Part shown: positions 43,412-64,000 of the stretch, one piece after another | Numbering within the stretch: the first letter of the stretch is position 1 | How the letters are laid out: each line of letters begins with the position of its first letter | Origin: Aminobacter aganoensis | GTDB taxonomy: Bacteria > Pseudomonadota > Alphaproteobacteria > Rhizobiales > Rhizobiaceae | Direction of reading: 5' to 3' | NCBI RefSeq assembly: GCF_014206975.1 | Contig: NZ_JACHOU010000009.1 | Span: forward strand, 1-64,000 | DNA length: 64,000 nucleotides | The notes under the pieces: model-generated | The model's database searches: none | What the model saw: only the letters and a program-made list of their open reading frames with translations | Told to the model about the DNA's origin: nothing | Made by a program: the position numbers and the translations under genes

Positions 43412-43876
43412 TCAGCGGCGGCGGATGAGCCGCGCCGCCTTGATGTTGACGCCGATCTTCTGCCTGATCTCGGCGAAGAGCTCGTCGAGCCCCTCCAGCT
43501 CCGACGCTGGCGCATCCGTGTGGCCGAGCGTCACGCCGCAGGCAATGCCGGGCTCGTCTGCGTAGACCGTGACGCTGATCTCGTCGAGCACTGAGTGCGG
43601 CCCTTCGTCGATCCAGCGCTGCTCGAAGCAGGGCCGCATGAAGTAGAACACGAACAGGGACTCCTCCATCTCGGACCTGTGCCGCTTTTCGTTCTGCTCG
43701 ATCCAGTACGGGACCTCTTTCTCGACATCGGCGCGCATCGCGTCCAGTTTCTCCACGAGGTTGGTGTGAAGCGTCCGGGCAAATTCCGTCCGGCATGCAT
43801 CGCGACGGATGGTCACCTTGCTGCGGATGGCATCGATGTTGTCGAGGGCGATGTAGGGATTGAAGATGCGTGTCAT
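43412..43876 (-). CDS. Conserved hypothetical protein (accessory block)
   Basis: A 154-residue soluble protein, acidic (MTRIFNPYIALDNID.., VPYWIEQNEKRHRSEMEESLFVFYFM, later ISVTVYADEPGIACGVTLGH). I know similar proteins from rhizobial plasmids but not a function. ATG 43876 has AAGGAG upstream. It is preceded at 53 bases by a ~195-bp structured leader that is homologous to the one before the gene starting at 44813, suggesting common regulation. Confidence 0.75.
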   Translation of the reverse strand: MTRIFNPYIALDNIDAIRSKVTIRRDACRTEFARTLHTNLVEKLDAMRADVEKEVPYWIEQNEKRHRSEMEESLFVFYFMRPCFEQRWIDEGPHSVLDEISVTVYADEPGIACGVTLGHTDAPASELEGLDELFAEIRQKIGVNIKAARLIRRR

Positions 43877-43928
43877 GATGAACTCCTTTTCGTCTGACGC
43901 GTTCCCGGCGACGAGGAAGACCACAAGG

Positions 43929-44121
43929 GGTCAAGGATCGCGGCACGCGACCGCCGGAGGCGGCAAGCGGAGGAACCGGTTTTCTGATCCGGCCCGAGAG
44001 GGCTGGAGCTGAAAACTGGAGGGGCCGCGCAGTCCTTGAGGCCGCGTGGGCGAGCGTAGACTGGGACGTCAGGGGAAGACCCCGCGCCCGCAGGGCGCGT
44101 CCTTATCCGGCGACCAGCCGG
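43929..44121 (-). ncRNA. Structured leader, copy 1
   Basis: A ~195-bp non-coding element in the 5' region of the gene starting at 43876. Long-range helix TCAAGGA (43931-43937) with TCCTTGA (44033-44039); helix CCGGTTTTC (43976-43984) with GAAAACTGG (44011-44019), capped by CCGGCCC-GAGA-GGGCTGG; hairpin GCGCCC-GCA-GGGCGC (44084-44098); hairpin CCGGC-GACCA-GCCGG (44107-44121). A further CGCCC/GGGCG hairpin follows to ~44149. The second copy at 44871 keeps these helices with changed bases. Transcription in the minus direction is inferred from the downstream gene. Confidence 0.7.
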
Positions 44122-44252
44122 CTATGACGGCGAGTCCGCCCTGGGGGCGCATCTCGATTGGAACGGGCTGAGCGATGATGTCGCATGGCTGTGCGATGAC
44201 ACGCCGGACATGAAAAGATCGAGGCGGCTCGCACCGTCTCGATCCCGGGCCG

Positions 44253-55744: not shown

Positions 55745-56167
55745 CTACCGGTTGCCGATTTCCGGCAGGCTGGAACGTGGCGGAACGTCCGGTGTGATCT
55801 GGCGGGCTTTCCGCACGAGGTCGGCGAGGAGTCGGCGCAACTCGCCCTCGCCGCTCACGAGATCGAGATGAAGGTCTGCCAGCCGCACAATCAGGGCGGC
55901 TGCCTCCGGAAAGAGCCGACAGGCGCCGTCGAACTCGACGGCCTCGGCGATTTCATTGCGGCCTTCGGAATCGAGACGGTCGATGTAGGAGATGAGCCCC
56001 TCGCGGCGCTCATCGGCTTCGATGGATTCTGGAAAGCCGGAGCCAAGCATCAGCTCGCGCGCGACATGCTGTGCGATGGCGATCGCGTCGGCATCGCTGG
56101 CTGCGTCGATCGTCATGCTGTCCCAGCAGCGCAGCCAGAAGCGCAGTTTGACAATATAGTCGGTCAT
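55745..56167 (-). CDS. Conserved hypothetical protein
   Basis: A 140-residue soluble protein (MTDYIVKLRFWLRCWDSMTIDAASDADAIAIAQHVARELM.., EFDGACRLFPEAAALIVRLADLHLDLV). No known function. It is the second of two genes overlapping by four bases. Confidence 0.68.
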   Translation of the reverse strand: MTDYIVKLRFWLRCWDSMTIDAASDADAIAIAQHVARELMLGSGFPESIEADERREGLISYIDRLDSEGRNEIAEAVEFDGACRLFPEAAALIVRLADLHLDLVSGEGELRRLLADLVRKARQITPDVPPRSSLPEIGNR

Positions 56168-56442
56168 TGTCCCACCTTCCCTGTGCTGTCCATCGTCCAG
56201 GAAGTGGCGTCGGCGACATCGGTCTGCGTAACGTCGATGACAATTGTATCGTCTTCGATCCTGTAGGCCTGCTCTCCGGTGAGAAGACGTCGAGCGCTAT
56301 CGGCCGGAAGGCCGGGCCAAGTGTCGGTGACGACGCGGAGGATCGCGGCACGGTCGCGCGGAAACACATAGGCGTTGATCGCCCAGGCGATCAGGCCCGG
56401 CGCATGGACGAGCGAGCTCGATCCGAGTTTGTACGTCGGCAT
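56164..56442 (-). CDS. Conserved hypothetical protein
   Basis: A 92-residue protein (MPTYKLGSSSLVHAPGLIAWAINAYVFPRDRAAILRVVTDTWPGLPADSARRLLTGEQ). No family recognised. Overlaps the next gene (ATGA) and probably forms a two-gene unit with it. Confidence 0.65.
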   Translation of the reverse strand: MPTYKLGSSSLVHAPGLIAWAINAYVFPRDRAAILRVVTDTWPGLPADSARRLLTGEQAYRIEDDTIVIDVTQTDVADATSWTMDSTGKVGQ

Positions 56443-56513
56443 GGAAACCTCTTGAGCTTCGGAAAATGGGAAGGATTGGTCTGGGCAGGCCGCATCTATG
56501 GCGCTGCGTGTTG

Positions 56514-56966
56514 CTAGTAGAGACGGCGGAAAGCTTGCCGGTCGACGTCCTTGCTGTGGCCGGAAAGGAGGAAGACCCTGCCCTGAACGTCGATGTTCAG
56601 GATTCCTTCGGCGTCGAGCGCCGAATTCCAGGCATCACCGAGCAGATCGTCCAGCATGCGGGAAAGTGCTGCGATCAGATGCAATTTGCGGTGGCGGAAC
56701 CGTAGTCGACGACCCGGCTCTGCATAGCGTAGCTGCAGGGCCGGCAGGATGAACCGGCCCGCATCGCCATAGGCGTTGGCGCTGTGAATATAGCAGCCGA
56801 AGGGAAGATCCTCGAACTCGATGTCGGCGCGCGCGATGCGGGCGGCGGCGAGCGTATCCAGGATGACGGTCTTGTTGCGCAGAAGTGCGGCGCGCCGCCA
56901 AGGAGCAAGAATGCCGGCTTCGCAGGCGAGCCTGTCGGTGGTCGCTGTCGAGGAGTGGGGAAGCAT
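56514..56966 (-). CDS. Conserved hypothetical protein
   Basis: A 150-residue soluble protein (RRAALLRNKTVILDTLAAARIARADIEFEDLPFGCYIHSANAYGDAG.., later VQGRVFLLSGHSKDVDR). No function recognised. Preceded by leader copy B. Confidence 0.62.
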   Translation of the reverse strand: MLPHSSTATTDRLACEAGILAPWRRAALLRNKTVILDTLAAARIARADIEFEDLPFGCYIHSANAYGDAGRFILPALQLRYAEPGRRLRFRHRKLHLIAALSRMLDDLLGDAWNSALDAEGILNIDVQGRVFLLSGHSKDVDRQAFRRLY

Positions 56967-57065
56967 CGTGGTTCTCCGAGAGCGGCCGGGTGAACGACAG
57001 CCGGCAACCCGCTCTCTCCGCGCCGGCTCTCACCCCCTGCCGGCCGCCCTCTCCCTCGGACGATG
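56967..57065 (-). promoter_or_regulatory. Purine-rich repeated leader, copy B
   Basis: On the minus strand it has GAGGGAGAGGGCGGCCGG, AGGGGGTG, CCGGCGCGGAGAGAG and GCCGGC in the same order as copy A before 55608. About 70% of positions agree by eye. Confidence 0.55.
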
Positions 57066-57150
57066 CTCGATCCCAGGGTTGCATCCTGCCCGAAGCCGTG
57101 ACTCAATACGAATACAGGGGATGCGGCGGCGACCCGGAGCAAGGGAGGTA

Positions 57151-58341
57151 ATGCGGCGATTTTCGATTGGCGGTGACGTCTTCACCGATGAGGTGCCGGA
57201 ACTGCAGGCAGCGCTTGCAGCAGCCTACACCCGCAAGGAGCGGCCGCTGTGCCTGTGCCGCGATCCGGGATGCGCGATGTACATCGCGCAGATCGGCGAT
57301 CTTCACGTGATCAAGCGCATGCCGCTCAGTGGCGGCGAGCACGATCCCTCCTGTGAGTCCTACGAATCTCCCTATGCGCTGTCAGGTCTCGGACCTCTGA
57401 TGGGAAGTGCTATTCAACTCGACGCTGAAAGTGGCACGGCGGCGCTCAAGCTTGACTTCAGCCTGTCGAAGACCGGCAGTCGGGCACCGCCCGTCGCGGG
57501 CGACGGCGGTCCGGCCGGCGTAAGCGCCGACCAGAGGAAACTGTCCTTGCGTGGCCTGCTGCACTATCTGTGGCACGAGGCCGAGCTGACCGTCTGGACC
57601 TCAAGGTGGGCGGGGAAACGACATTGGTGGAACGTACGTTGGCATCTGCTCGAGGCGGCGAAGCAGATGACTGTGAAGGGTGGCCAGCTTTCGGACATTC
57701 TGTTCGTCCCTGAGCCGTTTCGTGCCGACAACAAGGAGGCCATCGAGCAGCGGCGCAGCGTGGCGCTCGCCGCCGCGTTGCCGCCGAAGACCGGGCCACG
57801 CCGGCTGATGGTGCTTGTCGGCGAGGTGAAGGAAGTCGCGCCGGCGAGATCGGGCCAAAAGGTCGTCATCAGGCATCTGCCGGGATTTCCGCTACTGATC
57901 GACGATACGCTACATCGGCGGCTGCTGGCCCGCTTCGAGCGCGAATTCTCGCTGTGGGGCGCCGATCCTTCTTCGCATTTGATCGCCGTTGCAACGTTCG
58001 GACTGAATCCGGCGGGGCTGGCCATCGTCGAGGAAGTCGCGCTGATGATCGTGTCGGAAAACTGGATCCCCTACGAGACGATGTACGAGAAGCGGCTGGT
58101 CGATGCTCTTGCCCGGTTCCGTGAAAAAAGCATCAAGGGCCTTCGCTACAATCTGCACCCGGATCAACCGATCGCGAACGCGCTTCTTCAGAACAGGAGG
58201 GAGCCGTTCGCCCTCTTCATCGTTCCGGCCGGAGCGGATGAGGACTTCGAAGCGTCCTTGCAGGACATGATTGCGGCACGCCCGGAAATGAGGCCGTGGA
58301 TATGGCGTGTCGCCGACGGTGACATGCCGGCGTTGCCCTGA
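57151..58341 (+). CDS. DUF1173 protein
   Basis: A 396-residue DUF1173 protein. ATG 57151 is fixed by GGGAGGT just upstream. The N-terminal part has a Cys/His-rich segment (CLCRDPGCAMYIAQIGDLHVIKRMPLSGGEHDPSCESYE) that could bind metal; a long conserved body follows (GLLHYLWHEAELTVW, MVLVGEVKE, GFPLLIDDTLHRRL). Function is unknown; the family is found on alphaproteobacterial plasmids. It is one of the few plus-strand genes in this block. Confidence 0.85.
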   Translation: MRRFSIGGDVFTDEVPELQAALAAAYTRKERPLCLCRDPGCAMYIAQIGDLHVIKRMPLSGGEHDPSCESYESPYALSGLGPLMGSAIQLDAESGTAALKLDFSLSKTGSRAPPVAGDGGPAGVSADQRKLSLRGLLHYLWHEAELTVWTSRWAGKRHWWNVRWHLLEAAKQMTVKGGQLSDILFVPEPFRADNKEAIEQRRSVALAAALPPKTGPRRLMVLVGEVKEVAPARSGQKVVIRHLPGFPLLIDDTLHRRLLARFEREFSLWGADPSSHLIAVATFGLNPAGLAIVEEVALMIVSENWIPYETMYEKRLVDALARFREKSIKGLRYNLHPDQPIANALLQNRREPFALFIVPAGADEDFEASLQDMIAARPEMRPWIWRVADGDMPALP

Positions 58342-58385
58342 TCCGGTTTGTGGGACCGTGTACTGAAGCGCTTCCATCAACGTGG

Positions 58386-58441
58386 TGAATCGGTTCGCCG
58401 CCATTGATTCAAAGAATGCGTTGGACGGCCTTATCCCTCGC
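58386..58441 (+). repeat. Short repeat B
   Basis: Partner of the repeat at 45399-45456: TGAATCGGTTCGCCGCC, then ATTGATTCAAAGAATGCGTTGGAC and TATCC..TCGC. It ends 7 bases before a GATCATG that would start only a 14-codon frame. Confidence 0.5.
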
Positions 58442-58456
58442 AGCGATCATGACGGC

Positions 58457-58690
58457 ATGGCGGGGAAAGAGCAGCAATCGTGCATCAGGGTGAGCATCCT
58501 GCGACCTTCGGGCGAGCAGTCTCGGAGTGCCGATATCCGTTTGATTGTCGTCGCAGTTGATGTGGACGGTGGGAATGGCCGGGTCGATTGCCGCTCGGAC
58601 CTACGCGGGGAGCCTCTTGCCAACTGGCTTGCGCGCCGACATCATCCGGTGGATGCACGTATTCTCAAGCCTCGTGCGGGTGGACGGTAG
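58457..58690 (+). CDS. Hypothetical 77-residue protein
   Basis: An open frame (MAGKEQQSCIRVSILRPSGEQSRSADIRLIVVAVDVDGGNGRVDCR..) after short repeat B. I recognise no family, and a ribosome site is weak. It may be a real small gene or chance. Confidence 0.35.
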   Translation: MAGKEQQSCIRVSILRPSGEQSRSADIRLIVVAVDVDGGNGRVDCRSDLRGEPLANWLARRHHPVDARILKPRAGGR

Positions 58691-58757
58691 AACGTGGCCG
58701 ATGTAGGTGGGCCCGGTGATCCGGTCCACGGATCGAATCCTGTCCAGGACGCCAATC

Positions 58758-59156
58758 ATGAAGCGGCAGACCCGACCCTTCGTCGTCGAGGTGAAGAAGA
58801 AGCGTGGCGACGGTGCCCGGAAGCAGTCGATATGGGGCGGACTGGATCTTTCTGCGATCGCCGCCGAAGCGAACAACGAACTGCCAGATTCCGCGCCGTC
58901 GCAGACGGAGGCGAAGGTCATGGAACCCGCTGCGCCAGAAAATGTGGCGGTCGCTCCGTCCATAATCGCGCCTCCCAGGGCGCAGGGCTATCCGGATATC
59001 GAAGCGAACGATCTCGCGCATGCGCCGGGTGACGTGGCTGACATCGACCCGGCGAGTCCGAAACCATCTCGTAGACGACGCGGAAGCACCGAGAGCCTTC
59101 CGCGGGGCCAGCGATGGAAGCGGCGGCTGCCTGAGGTGCTTCGCAGGAAGAAGTAG
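58758..59156 (+). CDS. Conserved small basic protein
   Basis: A 132-residue basic protein starting MKRQTRPFVVEVKKKR and followed by SIWGGLDLSAIAAEA, a pattern I know from many rhizobial plasmids without a function. The rest is Pro/Ala-rich and likely disordered, ending in a Lys/Arg cluster that may bind nucleic acid. Start 58758 is where the conserved part begins. Confidence 0.65.
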   Translation: MKRQTRPFVVEVKKKRGDGARKQSIWGGLDLSAIAAEANNELPDSAPSQTEAKVMEPAAPENVAVAPSIIAPPRAQGYPDIEANDLAHAPGDVADIDPASPKPSRRRRGSTESLPRGQRWKRRLPEVLRRKK

Positions 59157-59166
59157 GCCGAACGGC

Positions 59167-59454
59167 CTATTCGTAGCGAGGCCGGGTTTCGGGATAGAAT
59201 TTTGGAGCGAAGTCCTCGTAGACCGAGACCGAATAGCGGCCGCCTGCATAGACGACTGACCTCACATCTGGTCGGTGCTGCTGCAGGCGCTCCAGAAGAC
59301 GGTTGGCGCGATGGGCGACGGCGAATGCCTTTTCTTTGGTCTTGAAGGTGCGCCAGACGCGCACGATCTGGCCAGTGTCGTACCACCAGCCGCCCTCTTC
59401 AGGCCCCCCACAGACCCTATTGATCTCGTAGAAGGCCAGGACATAGTTTGTCAT
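59167..59454 (-). CDS. Hypothetical protein
   Basis: A 95-residue soluble protein (MTNYVLAFYEINRVCGGPEEGGWWYDTGQIVRVWRTFKTKEKAFAVAHRANRLLERLQ). Uncharacterised; recurs on related elements as far as I recall. It overlaps the upstream gene by four bases. Confidence 0.7.
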   Translation of the reverse strand: MTNYVLAFYEINRVCGGPEEGGWWYDTGQIVRVWRTFKTKEKAFAVAHRANRLLERLQQHRPDVRSVVYAGGRYSVSVYEDFAPKFYPETRPRYE

Positions 59455-59876
59455 GACGATGCCTCCGGCATGGATCCCTGATCGGGATCGCGGCGTTCTT
59501 CGATGATGGCTTTCGCCTTTTCGACGGCCGCGACGGCTTTCGGTAACCAGCGCTCAAAATCAATCCGAGAGAGCCCCATGGGCTGGGCCGGACAGGCGAG
59601 CAGGTCGAGCAAGACGGGGAAGTGATCGACCATGCGCTGCGTCGTTTCCTCGAAATGCGACGGTATCGCCAACGCCTCGCCCCTGTAGGCGCAATCCGCC
59701 CCGCTCCAGATGCCGGTGATGTAGGTGTGGCCCGCGCATTCGAAGTCGGGCAGTTCGCCCGACCAGTCCGCGTCCTCGATGGCGAGACGGCACGCGTCCG
59801 CTGGCGTTGCGGCATCGTAGGTGCGCTGCCGGTAGTAGGGCATGCGGTAGGTGGCTTCGATGGTGAACCTGGGCAT
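59451..59876 (-). CDS. Hypothetical protein
   Basis: A 141-residue soluble protein (MPRFTIEATYRMPYYRQRTYDAATPADACRLAIEDADWSG.., GIWSGADCAYRGEALAIPSHFEE). ATG 59876 is favoured by AGGAG upstream. Coupled to the next gene by a four-base overlap. Confidence 0.7.
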   Translation of the reverse strand: MPRFTIEATYRMPYYRQRTYDAATPADACRLAIEDADWSGELPDFECAGHTYITGIWSGADCAYRGEALAIPSHFEETTQRMVDHFPVLLDLLACPAQPMGLSRIDFERWLPKAVAAVEKAKAIIEERRDPDQGSMPEASS

Positions 59877-59894
59877 GGGATTGCTCCTGTCATG

Positions 59895-59922
59895 AAAAAC
59901 GATGCCCGGCACGAGGCCGGGC
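59895..59922 (-). terminator. Intrinsic terminator after the DUF4326 gene
   Basis: Read on the minus strand: GCCCGGC, loop CTCGT, GCCGGGC, then ATCGTTTTT. It lies 50 bases after the DUF4326 stop and separates it from the next pair of genes. Confidence 0.7.
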
Positions 59923-59972
59923 GGAAAATGTGATAATTCGGTGATTGCCGAACGATCAGCGAGGCATGCCGA

Positions 59973-60281
59973 TCATCCGCCCGCTTTGACGCTGCGCCAC
60001 CAGGCGATGCGCTCCTCGCGCGTGGCGTTCGCCAGTCGGATCAGAAGATTGCCGTGACATAGCTTGGGTCGACAAAAGCAAACGAGGTCACAGCCCTTCA
60101 ATTCGTCGAGCGATCTGAGCAGGTCATGCTGATCGGCGAGCCAGTGCTCGTGCTTCGCGACCACGGTCTGACGATCGCCGTCGCGGCCGATGACGAAGCG
60201 ATTGCCCCATTTCGATCCACGGCCGATGTATTTGGCTTCCGGCGCGATGACGTCTGTGTGCTTGTTGAGGACTCGGCACAT
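59973..60281 (-). CDS. DUF4326 protein
   Basis: A 102-residue DUF4326 protein: KYIGRGSKWGNRFVIGRDGDR near residues 18-38 and CDLVCFCRPKLCHGNLL, the two hallmark motifs (RGSxWGNPF and CxCxPxxCHG). The Cys/His pattern suggests metal binding. Function unproven. Its start lies inside the rear of the DUF1419 frame. Confidence 0.87.
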   Translation of the reverse strand: MCRVLNKHTDVIAPEAKYIGRGSKWGNRFVIGRDGDRQTVVAKHEHWLADQHDLLRSLDELKGCDLVCFCRPKLCHGNLLIRLANATREERIAWWRSVKAGG

Positions 60282-60657
60282 TGTTGCGGTTCCCGTTCAT
60301 GAAGGTTGCGTGGCAATCGTTAGAATCGTGATGCCGGTCCCCTCTCCCGAAACCCGACACCACCTCCCGCCGCCCTGCCTCTACCTCCCGCGCGCAACCC
60401 CGGCCGAAACCAGCCGCTGGGCGCGTCGAATGTTCGATATGGACATGGCGGATGGCCTTCGCGGACGCCTTGCATCTTGGCAGGCCGAGCATGAAATGGT
60501 AGTCTGACGGGCTTATCTCGAACCATTCGCACGCATATGGCGTGCCGGACAGCGGATCGAACGCCGGATTGTCCTGGTGGTGGTTGAACAGCCGGAACAT
60601 CTGCTCGCGCGTGGCGACCCCGTCGAACACCTTCCTGAAGGGAGGATGTGAAGTCAT
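60124..60657 (-). pseudogene. DUF1419 gene, truncated
   Basis: The first ~57 residues (PFRKVFDGVATREQMFRLFNHHQDNP.., YACEWFEISPSDYHFMLGL) are typical of DUF1419, with a good AGGAG before ATG 60657. After that the frame turns low-complexity (Arg/Gly/His-rich), and it runs through the DUF4326 start in another frame. The usual ~150-residue remainder of the family is missing, so I take it as a remnant whose front part is still coding. Confidence 0.6.
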
Positions 60658-60770
60658 GGCGGTTTCTCCTGGACGCAGACCGGCATCGCGCGGCGTGGAC
60701 CGCGGCGTGTGACGGCATGCAGTTGGTGGTGGTTGGATGCCCGACGGATGGATCGGGAGGTTATCGTCTG

Positions 60771-61432
60771 CTAGTCGAGGCCGAGCTTACGTGGCGATGT
60801 CGCCTGCAACATCCAGCGCTCGGCCTTGATGCGCCTGAGCACGTCGATCGCGGGAGGGATCGAACCTACTACGGTTTGAACATGGCGTTCGGCGACGATC
60901 CGTGTCGGCACTGTGGTGCCACTATCCGACTGTAAGACCGGACCGAAGCGAGTCTCGGCTTCGAAGACGCCGAACGAGTGATGGCGAAACAGCAGATGCT
61001 CGATCCCGTCGCACCAACTGGACGTTGCGAGGAACCAACCGTGGAGCGGCAGATAGAGGCTTGCATCGCCGCCGAAACGGCGAGCGCTGTCCTGCGCCAA
61101 TTCTTCAGCATCGATGTTTACGGAGCGAAGCCAATCGGGGCGTTGAAAGCCAAGCAACCAGTCGCTTGCCGACGGGATCATGCCGCAATCTTCCTCGAGA
61201 TGCAGCAGCCCGAGTGTGCGGGTGTCGACGGCAATGCCGTCTCCATTGGCGATGGTGGCGCCGAAGAGCAGAATTGCCTCTTCGACGCCCTGCAGGTGGT
61301 GACGAAGTGCGCGATGCGTGAAGCGGCACTGTATGGCCTTCGTCGAGTCGAACCATGTATGGAACTGGAAAAAGTCGCTCCAGCAGCCGCCATGGATTTC
61401 GCTGACGAACGCGCATGGTCGTAGGGATGCAT
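60771..61432 (-). pseudogene. Duplicated-domain hypothetical protein (DUF6915-like), frameshifted
   Basis: ATG 61432 with AAGGAGG opens MHPYDHARSSAK, the usual start of this family as I recall it, but similarity then moves to another frame: EIHGGCWSDFFQFHTWFDSTKAI.., on to MIPSASDWLLGFQRPDWL (the ATG at 61181) and to the stop at 60771. So a base change near codons 11-13 seems to break the gene. The protein has two like halves: FFQFHTWFDSTK..FTHRALRHHLQGVEEAILLFG and YLPLHGWFLATS..IEHLLFRHHSFGVFEAETRFG. The family name is from memory. Confidence 0.6.
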
Positions 61433-61448
61433 CGTACGGTCCTCCTTC

Positions 61449-63260
61449 TCAGTAGGGGATTGGGGCGCCCGGATCGATCGGGCTGGAAAGCGCCACGATG
61501 GCGCGATCGACAGCATGGGCGAGGCCTGTCTTTTCGCACCATGCGTCGAGGCTTCCCGGCGTATTGCGTGGCAGCAGCGGCAGGTAGAACGGAAAGACCT
61601 CACGGGCATGCGCGATGGGCAGTGTGTGGGAACTCCACACATAGTCACCTTCCCGTTGCATTCGCTTGCGATGGGCGGCGAGCTGCGAACGGAAGATCGG
61701 GTGTCTGCGGCAGTTCAAATCGCTGAGGAAGGCGCGAAGCACATCATGCAGTTCGTCGTCGGGTCGCTGGTTGCGGCGTGCCTTGAACTGTCCAACCTGG
61801 TAGGAGAGCGTGTCAGCGGTCGTGCCTGACAGTTTCAGCTCGATCGTCGCGACATGACTACCACCACGCTTCAACGACAGGATTTGCACGGCGCCGGAGC
61901 GGCAAGGTTGGTAGTAGCCGCCAACGCAGTGGTCGAGGCTGTTGCCCTCCTCGACGAGGCCGCCGGCCGTGGTGATTGGAACGATGTCGTGGAGTCCTCG
62001 TGGACATTGCCAAGGCGGGCAGATCGACGGCCAACCCGGGCGGTCGGTTCTGTGTTCATGGCGAACCGCCGAGAGCGTCGCGACCCGACGGTGCCAGAGT
62101 TCGGCCGCTTCATGAAAGGCCTTGATCCCGCGGGTTCCGATGATCGCCTTGTTGAGGATAGACAGGAAGGCGCGGCGATCCGGACTGTCGCGCAAACCCG
62201 TCGGGAACGCCAACGAATGGAGGAAGACGTTGGCGACGATGGAACGGTTTGCCAGCACGAGCCGGTTGGCGACGACCGGCCGCAGAATATCGTCGGCAAG
62301 AGAACTTATGGCGTCTGTAGCGTGCTGGTTGGCGCTGACATAGTCGACGCGGATGATGTTGTTGCGATGATACGCCGCCCATGGTGACAAGGACCATGCA
62401 CTGGGCTGGTCTGGTTCGCCGCGGCCGGGCCATTCCGCAAGGGGAACGCCATGGGCTTTGAGTTCGGCAATCGTCGCCTCGAAATCAGTACCGATCCGCA
62501 GTGCAGTGGTAAGGGATCGCGCACCACGAAGCGCCCTGAGTTCAGGTGTCGTGATGTTGAGCCGATCCATCAGCACGGGTTTGAGTGGAAGGCCCTCATC
62601 GATGGTTGCGGTTATGTTCGGCTCGCGCAGGACCGTGGAAAGCGAGGCGTAGATCCGGAGCGCCTGCCAACGTCGGGTCAGCAGGATCGGCCGCCTCGGG
62701 TCACCGGAATGATCGACAGCAAGCAGCCATTCGAGTGTCGAGCATGGGCTGGTCGGACGCTCTTCCAGACCGGGAATGTCGCGACGTAGCAGGCGTTTGA
62801 GATGCATGTCGGTCAGATGACCCACCTGCAGCGCAACCGTTGCGATGGCTTTCGAGATCATCTCGGCCATGGTCTTCAGGGCGATCTCGCGCGCACCGGC
62901 CTCGACAGCCTTTGCAAGCAGATCGATATAGCCGTAGCGATCCAGCCAGGTTCCGAGATCGAATTGCGGTGTTGAGCCGGCGCGACAGGCATTGGCCGTG
63001 ATCGCGGCTTCCATGTCCTTGACGAGCTGCGTGGCATGGGGATCGTCCTGGAGCTTCGGCTTGACGGAGACGCGGGCCTCGACGCCGTTGACCGAACGTC
63101 TGGCTGTGATCGTAGTCCTCGCGAATGCCGAGATCGTCACCAGGGCGTTGATCGCTGGATGCGTGCCGAGCTTCGCGAATGCCGGTACGTGCGAGAGAAG
63201 TTCTGCCGCTGAACATGCACGCAGATGGGTCCAGCTGGTGGATGGAGATGTGGCGTTCAT
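61449..63260 (-). CDS. PcfJ-like protein
   Basis: A 603-residue protein with a PcfJ-type domain in its C-terminal third: GGLVEEGNSLDHCVGGYYQPCRSGAVQILSLKRGGSHVATIEL. The HCVGGY motif defines the family, named after a protein of a Gram-positive conjugative plasmid. The N-terminal 350 residues are not recognised. The start overlaps the upstream DUF6878-like gene by four bases, suggesting a pair. Confidence 0.82.
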   Translation of the reverse strand: MNATSPSTSWTHLRACSAAELLSHVPAFAKLGTHPAINALVTISAFARTTITARRSVNGVEARVSVKPKLQDDPHATQLVKDMEAAITANACRAGSTPQFDLGTWLDRYGYIDLLAKAVEAGAREIALKTMAEMISKAIATVALQVGHLTDMHLKRLLRRDIPGLEERPTSPCSTLEWLLAVDHSGDPRRPILLTRRWQALRIYASLSTVLREPNITATIDEGLPLKPVLMDRLNITTPELRALRGARSLTTALRIGTDFEATIAELKAHGVPLAEWPGRGEPDQPSAWSLSPWAAYHRNNIIRVDYVSANQHATDAISSLADDILRPVVANRLVLANRSIVANVFLHSLAFPTGLRDSPDRRAFLSILNKAIIGTRGIKAFHEAAELWHRRVATLSAVRHEHRTDRPGWPSICPPWQCPRGLHDIVPITTAGGLVEEGNSLDHCVGGYYQPCRSGAVQILSLKRGGSHVATIELKLSGTTADTLSYQVGQFKARRNQRPDDELHDVLRAFLSDLNCRRHPIFRSQLAAHRKRMQREGDYVWSSHTLPIAHAREVFPFYLPLLPRNTPGSLDAWCEKTGLAHAVDRAIVALSSPIDPGAPIPY

Positions 63261-63757
63261 TGTGCGCCCTCCCCATCTGCGAGGACAGCGTCATGCTGAT
63301 GCGGGTCGATGGCCGCAGGGTCATCGTCATCATCGAGATCGTCTTCCTCAAAATCGTCCTCGCTGTCGTCCTCATCGTGGTAGGTCATGTTGCATTCGAA
63401 CCAATCCTCCTCGTCCGCCCTCGGCCTGATGAAGACTTCACCGGAACCGCCTTCATTGTTGATCCAGTCGCCCTCCGGCAAATTGGATGCGAGGTCGTCG
63501 AGATAGTGCCCGAGCGTGTGGATCTCGCCACGAGAGGAAAAACTGATCGGAAGCTCCGGGAGGTGCGTATCTTCGCGACCATCGGCATAAAGGATGCGTT
63601 CGAGATTGGTGTCCCCGGAGTCACCGCCACCATCAAGGTGGTACTCTATCTCTTCGATGCCGAGGGCTCGAAGGAGGTTCATCACCTGCTTGTCTTCGCT
63701 CGCCGGAACACATTGATCCGGCACGTAGCCGGCTGGGTTCGCTTGTTTAGCGTCCAT
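63257..63757 (-). CDS. DUF6878-like acidic protein
   Basis: A 166-residue protein with YHLDGGGDSGDT (residues ~39-50) and GDWINNEGGSGEV, as in DUF6878 proteins of alphaproteobacterial elements, and a very acidic C-terminus (runs of Asp/Glu near 128-148). AGGAGG lies before ATG 63757. No function is known; the acidic tail recalls DNA mimics used against restriction, which is only a guess. Confidence 0.75.
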   Translation of the reverse strand: MDAKQANPAGYVPDQCVPASEDKQVMNLLRALGIEEIEYHLDGGGDSGDTNLERILYADGREDTHLPELPISFSSRGEIHTLGHYLDDLASNLPEGDWINNEGGSGEVFIRPRADEEDWFECNMTYHDEDDSEDDFEEDDLDDDDDPAAIDPHQHDAVLADGEGAQ

Positions 63758-64000
63758 TGTTACCTCCTGAAACGACGAAGCCCGGCGCGATGGCCGGGCT
63801 CGGTTGAAAATTGCAGATCGATATCGGCCCCTCGAAGGGCGAGAGGCATGGCAGCGATTGTCGGGATCAGTTTCGATCGTCGAGGTTCACGAACCGCATG
63901 CCACGCCGCAGCCGGCAGGGCCCTCCCCGCCCCGCCAGCGCGCACCCAAAACCGGCCCCTCTCTTCCTCTGCGGCCGGAACTAATGCGCGGATCGGATAG
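63758..64000 (-). other. Leader region at the right edge with hairpin
   Basis: No credible gene. AGCCCGGC (63779-63786) and GCCGGGCT (63793-63800) form a hairpin that on the minus strand is followed by TCGTCGTTT, probably the terminator of a unit beyond the window. Further right is a GC-rich stretch with GAGGAAGAGAGGGGCCGG on the minus strand, similar in style to leaders A and B. Confidence 0.5.

Follow-up and report, generated by a model that had tools for sequence, protein, structure and literature searches.

Proteins of the Pfam family DUF6915 (PF21866) are the closest described relatives of the gene analyzed here. Neither this family nor DUF6878, which is often encoded upstream of it, is named in the literature that we searched. 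A publication dealing with restriction counter-measures and with strawberry-notch-like ATPases coupled to adenine methylases (PMC5512222) makes no mention of PcfJ, the third protein of interest below. DUF6915 was found in 112 of 50,697 phage records, 90 of them belonging to Streptomyces phages, and in 215 of 72,556 plasmid records. Scanning viral contigs with single-domain proteins gave 527 candidate stretches, 465 of them with DUF6915, and the best 80 were kept; a scan of viral contigs with an alignment of two-domain proteins yielded none among 17 stretches. The family was present in 15 of 394 genomes of the bacterial family studied here, our own genome included, and in none of 14 control genomes, while a protein query matched 4 of 151 relatives and 9 of 385 genomes of the class, again with our own genome included. 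G018, which belongs to the same bacterial family, carries a DUF6915 frame of 84 codons (L039, 1498-1749) that matches profile positions 40-102 only and is perhaps a truncated copy.

We analyzed the first 64,000 nucleotides of contig NZ_JACHOU010000009.1 of Aminobacter aganoensis, referred to as the window. The single-domain DUF6915 proteins collected from viruses comprise 107-141 amino acids, whereas the window gene consists of two diverged domains and has its N-terminus out of frame. It is located on the minus strand (61432..60771); the initial annotation had given its coordinates without a strand. The following features were identified:

61441..61447, minus: ribosome-binding site AAGGAGG preceding the ATG at 61432, read from the sequence
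61397..61432, minus: first 12 codons including the original start, MHPYDHARSSAK, in a different phase from the body; the starts align in four of four relatives
61394..61401 (about 61397-61400), minus: frameshift site at a short A run with a net one-base loss, from the DNA alignment against four of four relatives
61110..61397, minus: half 1, a DUF6915 domain (Pfam PF21866, match at 61128-61400)
60774..61109, minus: half 2, a diverged DUF6915 domain (Pfam PF21866, match at 60810-61097)
60771..60773, minus: stop codon TAG of the body frame, from the sequence
60771..61181, minus: longest remaining open reading frame of the body frame with an ATG, GTG or TTG start, 136 amino acids covering the end of half 1 and half 2, from the ORF list

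The frame starting at ATG 61432 encodes MHPYDHARSSAK, continues into unrelated sequence and reaches a stop after 84 codons. A second frame, offset from it by one base (60771-61430, minus), is open up to the TAG and carries both halves quoted in the initial annotation, so that the ribosome site and the MHP-type start are indeed shifted by one base relative to the remainder. All of the first 12 codons (61432-61397) are identical to residues 1-12 of the Pseudaminobacter manganicus protein (L006), and the remainder after 61397 matches the same protein in the other frame (59%). The DNA alignment shows the same ribosome-site stretch in P. manganicus and places the net one-base loss close to codon 12, where the shift had been suspected. 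Since this loss sets a frame that ends after 84 codons, ordinary translation does not yield the complete protein; no more than the second half could be produced, from the internal ATG at 61181.

Besides P. manganicus, two-domain relatives were collected from Sphingobium subterraneum (L007), from the plasmids pRW412a of Sphingopyxis granuli (L011) and p1 of Sphingobium fuliginis (L012), and from the genomes G637, G645 (two genes, G645a and G645b) and G512. This count of eight covers the collected genes; a further match, on a Rhizorhabdus plasmid, lies outside this set and equals the Sphingopyxis match in identity and coverage. An alignment with relatives, the check proposed beforehand, demonstrated that all eight other genes start at the matching place and continue in a single open frame. 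Seven of them begin with M[HN]P[YF]DHARSS[AV][KR][IL]HGG and the eighth (G512) with MTHTYFHAKSSARIWGG. Relatives starting within the second frame without an MHP-type N-terminus, the outcome that would have spoken against the initial annotation, were thus not encountered among these genes. In the DNA alignment of the window with four relatives, the net one-base loss is restricted to the window (one of five rows). Compared to the P. manganicus protein, identities are 60% for the window, 63% for S. subterraneum and 59% each for S. granuli and S. fuliginis. All four relatives share the two-half layout of the window gene as well as its PcfJ and DUF6878-like neighbors, but their genes are intact whereas the window copy is frameshifted. 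Because the relatives are read in one frame and the loss is found only in the window, the gene was formerly whole and is now split, unless the sequence contains a reading error.

The body matches DUF6915 with an E-value of 6.6e-54 and 180.8 bits in two stretches, compared to a curated cut-off of 27 bits. In the genome search, each half exceeds this cut-off separately, with 103.8 bits for half 1 and 80.1 bits for half 2. Aligned with each other, the halves are identical at 29 of 88 residues and score 114 versus 25.7 ± 4.4 for 500 shuffles, i.e., 20 standard deviations above. Both the resemblance of the halves and their matches to DUF6915 are therefore far beyond chance. The intact P. manganicus protein also matches PHROG 8143 (phrog_8143) in two stretches, while NCBIfam gave no match for the seven proteins submitted. 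In the numbering of the viral single-domain protein L103, half 1 retains the family residues D30, K33, R42, E82, D83, and W93. Half 2 retains E55, R73, E77, and M103 but lacks D30, R42, E82, D83, and W93. We then considered 39 conserved columns, defined as those conserved in at least 95% of 36 single-domain proteins and counted from column 16. Over eight two-domain proteins, 16 of these columns are kept in both halves, 9 in half 1 only and 4 in half 2 only; 3 are lost from both halves and 7 are mixed. This asymmetry is largely constant across the eight proteins. A composite site arising from complementary loss of residues was not supported: three columns lost in both halves compare to 2.67 expected (P(<=3) 0.76), which is no better than chance.

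The duplication had been described as intact, and the two halves are indeed preserved and similar. The layout, however, is not private to the window gene. A tree was built from 59 rows (16 halves from the eight clade members, the two halves of G512 and 41 single-domain proteins). In it, the eight first halves group in one branch (100/100) and the eight second halves in another (100/99). It follows that the two-half layout is older than the clade and common to its members. The bootstrap of this tree was not fully settled, and long branches make the deeper joins unsure. Without constraints, the tree keeps the two sets of halves apart, but holding all 16 halves as one clade was not rejected (p-AU 0.208), and long branches meet. 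The layout may thus have originated either from a tandem duplication or from the fusion of two family members, and neither is favored. The two-domain gene of G512 (L015, about 1501-2181) has closer halves, which are identical at 53 of 100 residues and might point to a separate origin of its layout. However, the tree joins its second half, by a long branch, to the other second halves (96/84), and holding both G512 halves together was likewise not rejected (p-AU 0.368). With the other second halves removed, the G512 second half is most similar to its own first half (49% identity) but takes no supported place.

Two further genes precede the window gene on the same strand:

61449..63260, minus: intact gene with a PcfJ domain, directly upstream (Pfam PF14284, 33.2 bits, residues 423-505, cut-off 25)
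63257..63757, minus: DUF6878-like gene upstream of the PcfJ gene, with a 4-base overlap

The gene order is DUF6878-like, PcfJ and the double DUF6915 gene, which is the last of the operon. The PcfJ protein is 75% identical to that of P. manganicus over 594 of 595 residues in one frame. The product of the first gene reaches 23.5 bits against PF21798, just below the cut-off of 24.3; since the counterpart in S. subterraneum passes with 25.5 bits, we refer to the window gene as DUF6878-like. It shares 75% identity with P. manganicus over residues 3-146, with the GDSG and NNEGG motifs aligned. A PcfJ gene is located upstream in all eight clade members, window included, and the DUF6878-like gene lies ahead of it in all five clade loci that reach that far. 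For G512, no PcfJ match was found within its 3.6-kb locus. The complete contig (186,027 bases) carries genes for VirB2, B3, B8-B11, VirD4, ParA and a strawberry-notch protein resembling those of an Aquibium plasmid, and long stretches of it resemble Aminobacter and Chelativorans plasmids. Based on these genes and stretches, the contig probably represents all or a large part of a conjugative plasmid, and its similarities suggest a relationship to plasmids of Phyllobacteriaceae. Taken together, we regard the window gene, with good though not full confidence, as a recently inactivated two-domain DUF6915 copy, the third gene of a DUF6878-like - PcfJ - double DUF6915 operon on an apparent conjugative plasmid.

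The age and the reality of the break were addressed by analyzing selection on the body and the state of its surroundings. Over 208 codons, dN/dS was 0.176 versus L006, 0.205 versus L011, 0.191 versus G645b and 0.160 versus G637; comparisons with L007, L012, and G645a were saturated at synonymous sites. The GC content by codon position of the body resembles that of the relatives. The body has therefore been under purifying selection and has spent little time without it, which indicates either a recent break, in agreement with the initial annotation for these four unsaturated comparisons, or a reading error. The window departs from 7 of 79 columns that are invariant in the seven other clade members, compared to 0 to 12 when each of the others was left out in turn. 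Three of 12 relative-rate comparisons exceeded a chi-square of 3.84 (4.0 to 4.8), with the window evolving faster. These mixed results may hint at a somewhat older relaxation of the window gene.

Downstream of the body, a second gene is disrupted:

60481..60657, within the frame 60124-60657, minus: stump of a DUF1419 gene with 59 codons conserved; a single continuous match to two intact relatives covers 59 of about 210 residues

After these 59 codons the DUF1419 gene continues into unrelated sequence, and a DUF4326 gene comes next at 59973-60281. On the Aquibium plasmid, four genes lie between DUF1419 and DUF4326. The genes following DUF1419 in P. manganicus and on the Aquibium plasmid were not found at positions 56001-64000 of the window. 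From the Aquibium record (51000-90000, 42 annotated features), 35 proteins were tried against the window; 33 of them match and two do not. No frame break was detected in any of these 33 comparable backbone genes. The match is wholly in one frame for 29 of them. For three (the relaxase and two lytic transglycosylases) the second frame comes from a match located elsewhere, and for one it is an upstream stretch ahead of the conserved start. Within the relaxase match, residues 609-793 are unmatched and the flanks are in the same frame. A second frame break suspected near 44050 (window 43433-44235) was discarded, as it looks like an over-extended start annotation in Aquibium. The annotated start of the Aquibium gene concerned (L128, 11577-12470) seems far too early, its conserved part beginning at MTRIFNPYIALD.

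The truncation of DUF1419 together with the 33 unbroken backbone genes favors a real local decay. The strongest alternative is a sequencing or assembly error at the short A run, which would leave the gene intact in the cell. The genome is a draft of 52 contigs, the event concerns a single base in a short run, and the body is little decayed (208 codons without a stop, dN/dS 0.16-0.21), all of which are compatible with such an error. Nevertheless, we consider it clearly the less probable explanation, given the absence of frame breaks from all comparable plasmid genes and the disruption of the downstream DUF1419 gene in a manner that no base-call error produces. Furthermore, short A runs are not a usual weak spot of short-read data, which, if such data were used here, also counts against an error. 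A second alternative, that the locus survives as a one-domain gene expressing half 2 from ATG 61181, appears improbable to us. It could draw on the 136-amino-acid open reading frame and on a GAGGAAG upstream of this ATG, but the methionine at 61181 is missing from the four aligned relatives, and half 2 lacks several family residues in all eight clade members. Programmed -1 ribosomal frameshifting, which would join both frames to make the full protein on purpose, agrees with the direction of the shift (that crossed by a -1 slip) and with the open and conserved body, but was rejected as highly implausible, because no X XXY YYZ slippery heptamer is present between 61432 and 61381 and all eight other collected two-domain genes do without a shift. 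Overall, the gene is read as a pseudogene of recent origin, unremarkable as such, or with lower probability as a sequence error, within a known family. The initial annotation holds in what it observed and, for the most part, in its interpretation.

The pseudogene itself is ordinary; the unstudied pair of DUF6878 and DUF6915 is the better lead, and the gene matters a little in that it points to this widespread pair of mobile-element genes. In 70 of the best 80 viral loci, which represent 58 different proteins and are not independent, a DUF6878-like frame on the same strand lies no more than 2.5 kb upstream of DUF6915, and in 51 of these 70 the gap is at most 27 bases. Among the viral loci with at least 600 bases upstream, such a frame precedes the single DUF6915 in 69 of 74, with the profile built from the same viral loci and thus leaning towards detection there; three of the five missing loci have it overlapping or just downstream. 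A regular-expression count on greedy gene calls (22 or 32 of 69) was too crude and has been superseded by this profile count. Pfam confirmed DUF6878 in L088, L010, and L007. A DUF6878-like gene is also located upstream in the Solimonas, Stagnimonas, and Phaeobacter loci, as in most of the best 80 viral ones, and in Phaeobacter DUF6915 follows strawberry-notch and DUF6878 genes. The two-domain clade differs from these phage and plasmid pairs in that PcfJ lies between the DUF6878-like and DUF6915 genes. When 88 loci were clustered, 32 contained an AAA-ATPase cluster and 19 a DUF2201 metallopeptidase/VWA cluster, with one member serving to name each cluster. The viral contigs (L046-L125) as well as L010 and L013 mostly have a DUF6878-like gene near DUF6915, and some of them an AAA-ATPase or DUF2201 metallopeptidase/VWA gene nearby. 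Our search found no literature linking DUF2201, MoxR and phage jointly.

Structure models were obtained for the viral single-domain protein L103 (pLDDT 90.1, pTM 0.75), which is helical with a short pair of strands, and, with poorer quality, for the two-domain protein of P. manganicus (pLDDT 78.2, pTM 0.51). By eye, the order of helices and strands appears similar in both models. Foldseek returned no match in the PDB at an E-value of 0.001 for either model, and a sequence search of solved structures gave a single row (E 2). The best row of VIA-align, a filamentous-virus entry (Z 4.8, rmsd 3.8, 79 aligned), may merely reflect a common arrangement. Two BFVD entries matched at E 0.001, one a phage protein of the DUF6915 family and the other an unnamed protein. 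These negative fold searches are no proof of a new fold. No PADLOC-DB family was matched at E 0.01 by the DUF6915, PcfJ, and DUF6878 proteins given.

The conserved His, Arg, Asp and Glu residues would be compatible with a site for metal or nucleic acid. The occurrence on phages and conjugative plasmids and the position in Phaeobacter recall early-acting helper proteins of such elements. From this distribution and the strawberry-notch/DUF6878 context, we tentatively propose a role in establishment or counter-defense. Judging from the neighboring genes, we suggest, equally tentatively, that an intact DUF6915 protein would work together with the DUF6878 product, and in the two-domain clade also with PcfJ, acting early in support of the incoming element. 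Loss of the gene would be tolerated once the plasmid has settled, which fits the neighboring DUF1419 gene also being cut short. In a broader and equally speculative form, DUF6878 and DUF6915 might constitute a so far undescribed module of two proteins, carried by phages and conjugative plasmids and acting early on incoming DNA or RNA, with one plasmid lineage having recruited PcfJ and combined two DUF6915 domains in an asymmetric pair with different fixed roles; the window gene would then be a natural knock-out. Such a natural break in one partner provides a handle on the function of the pair. In Streptomyces phage Warpy (L126, 1900-4381), neither direct neighbor of DUF6915 matches DUF6878 in Pfam; the gene belongs to a tRNA-rich region and lies two small genes away from one encoding a Ro60-like RNA-binding protein.
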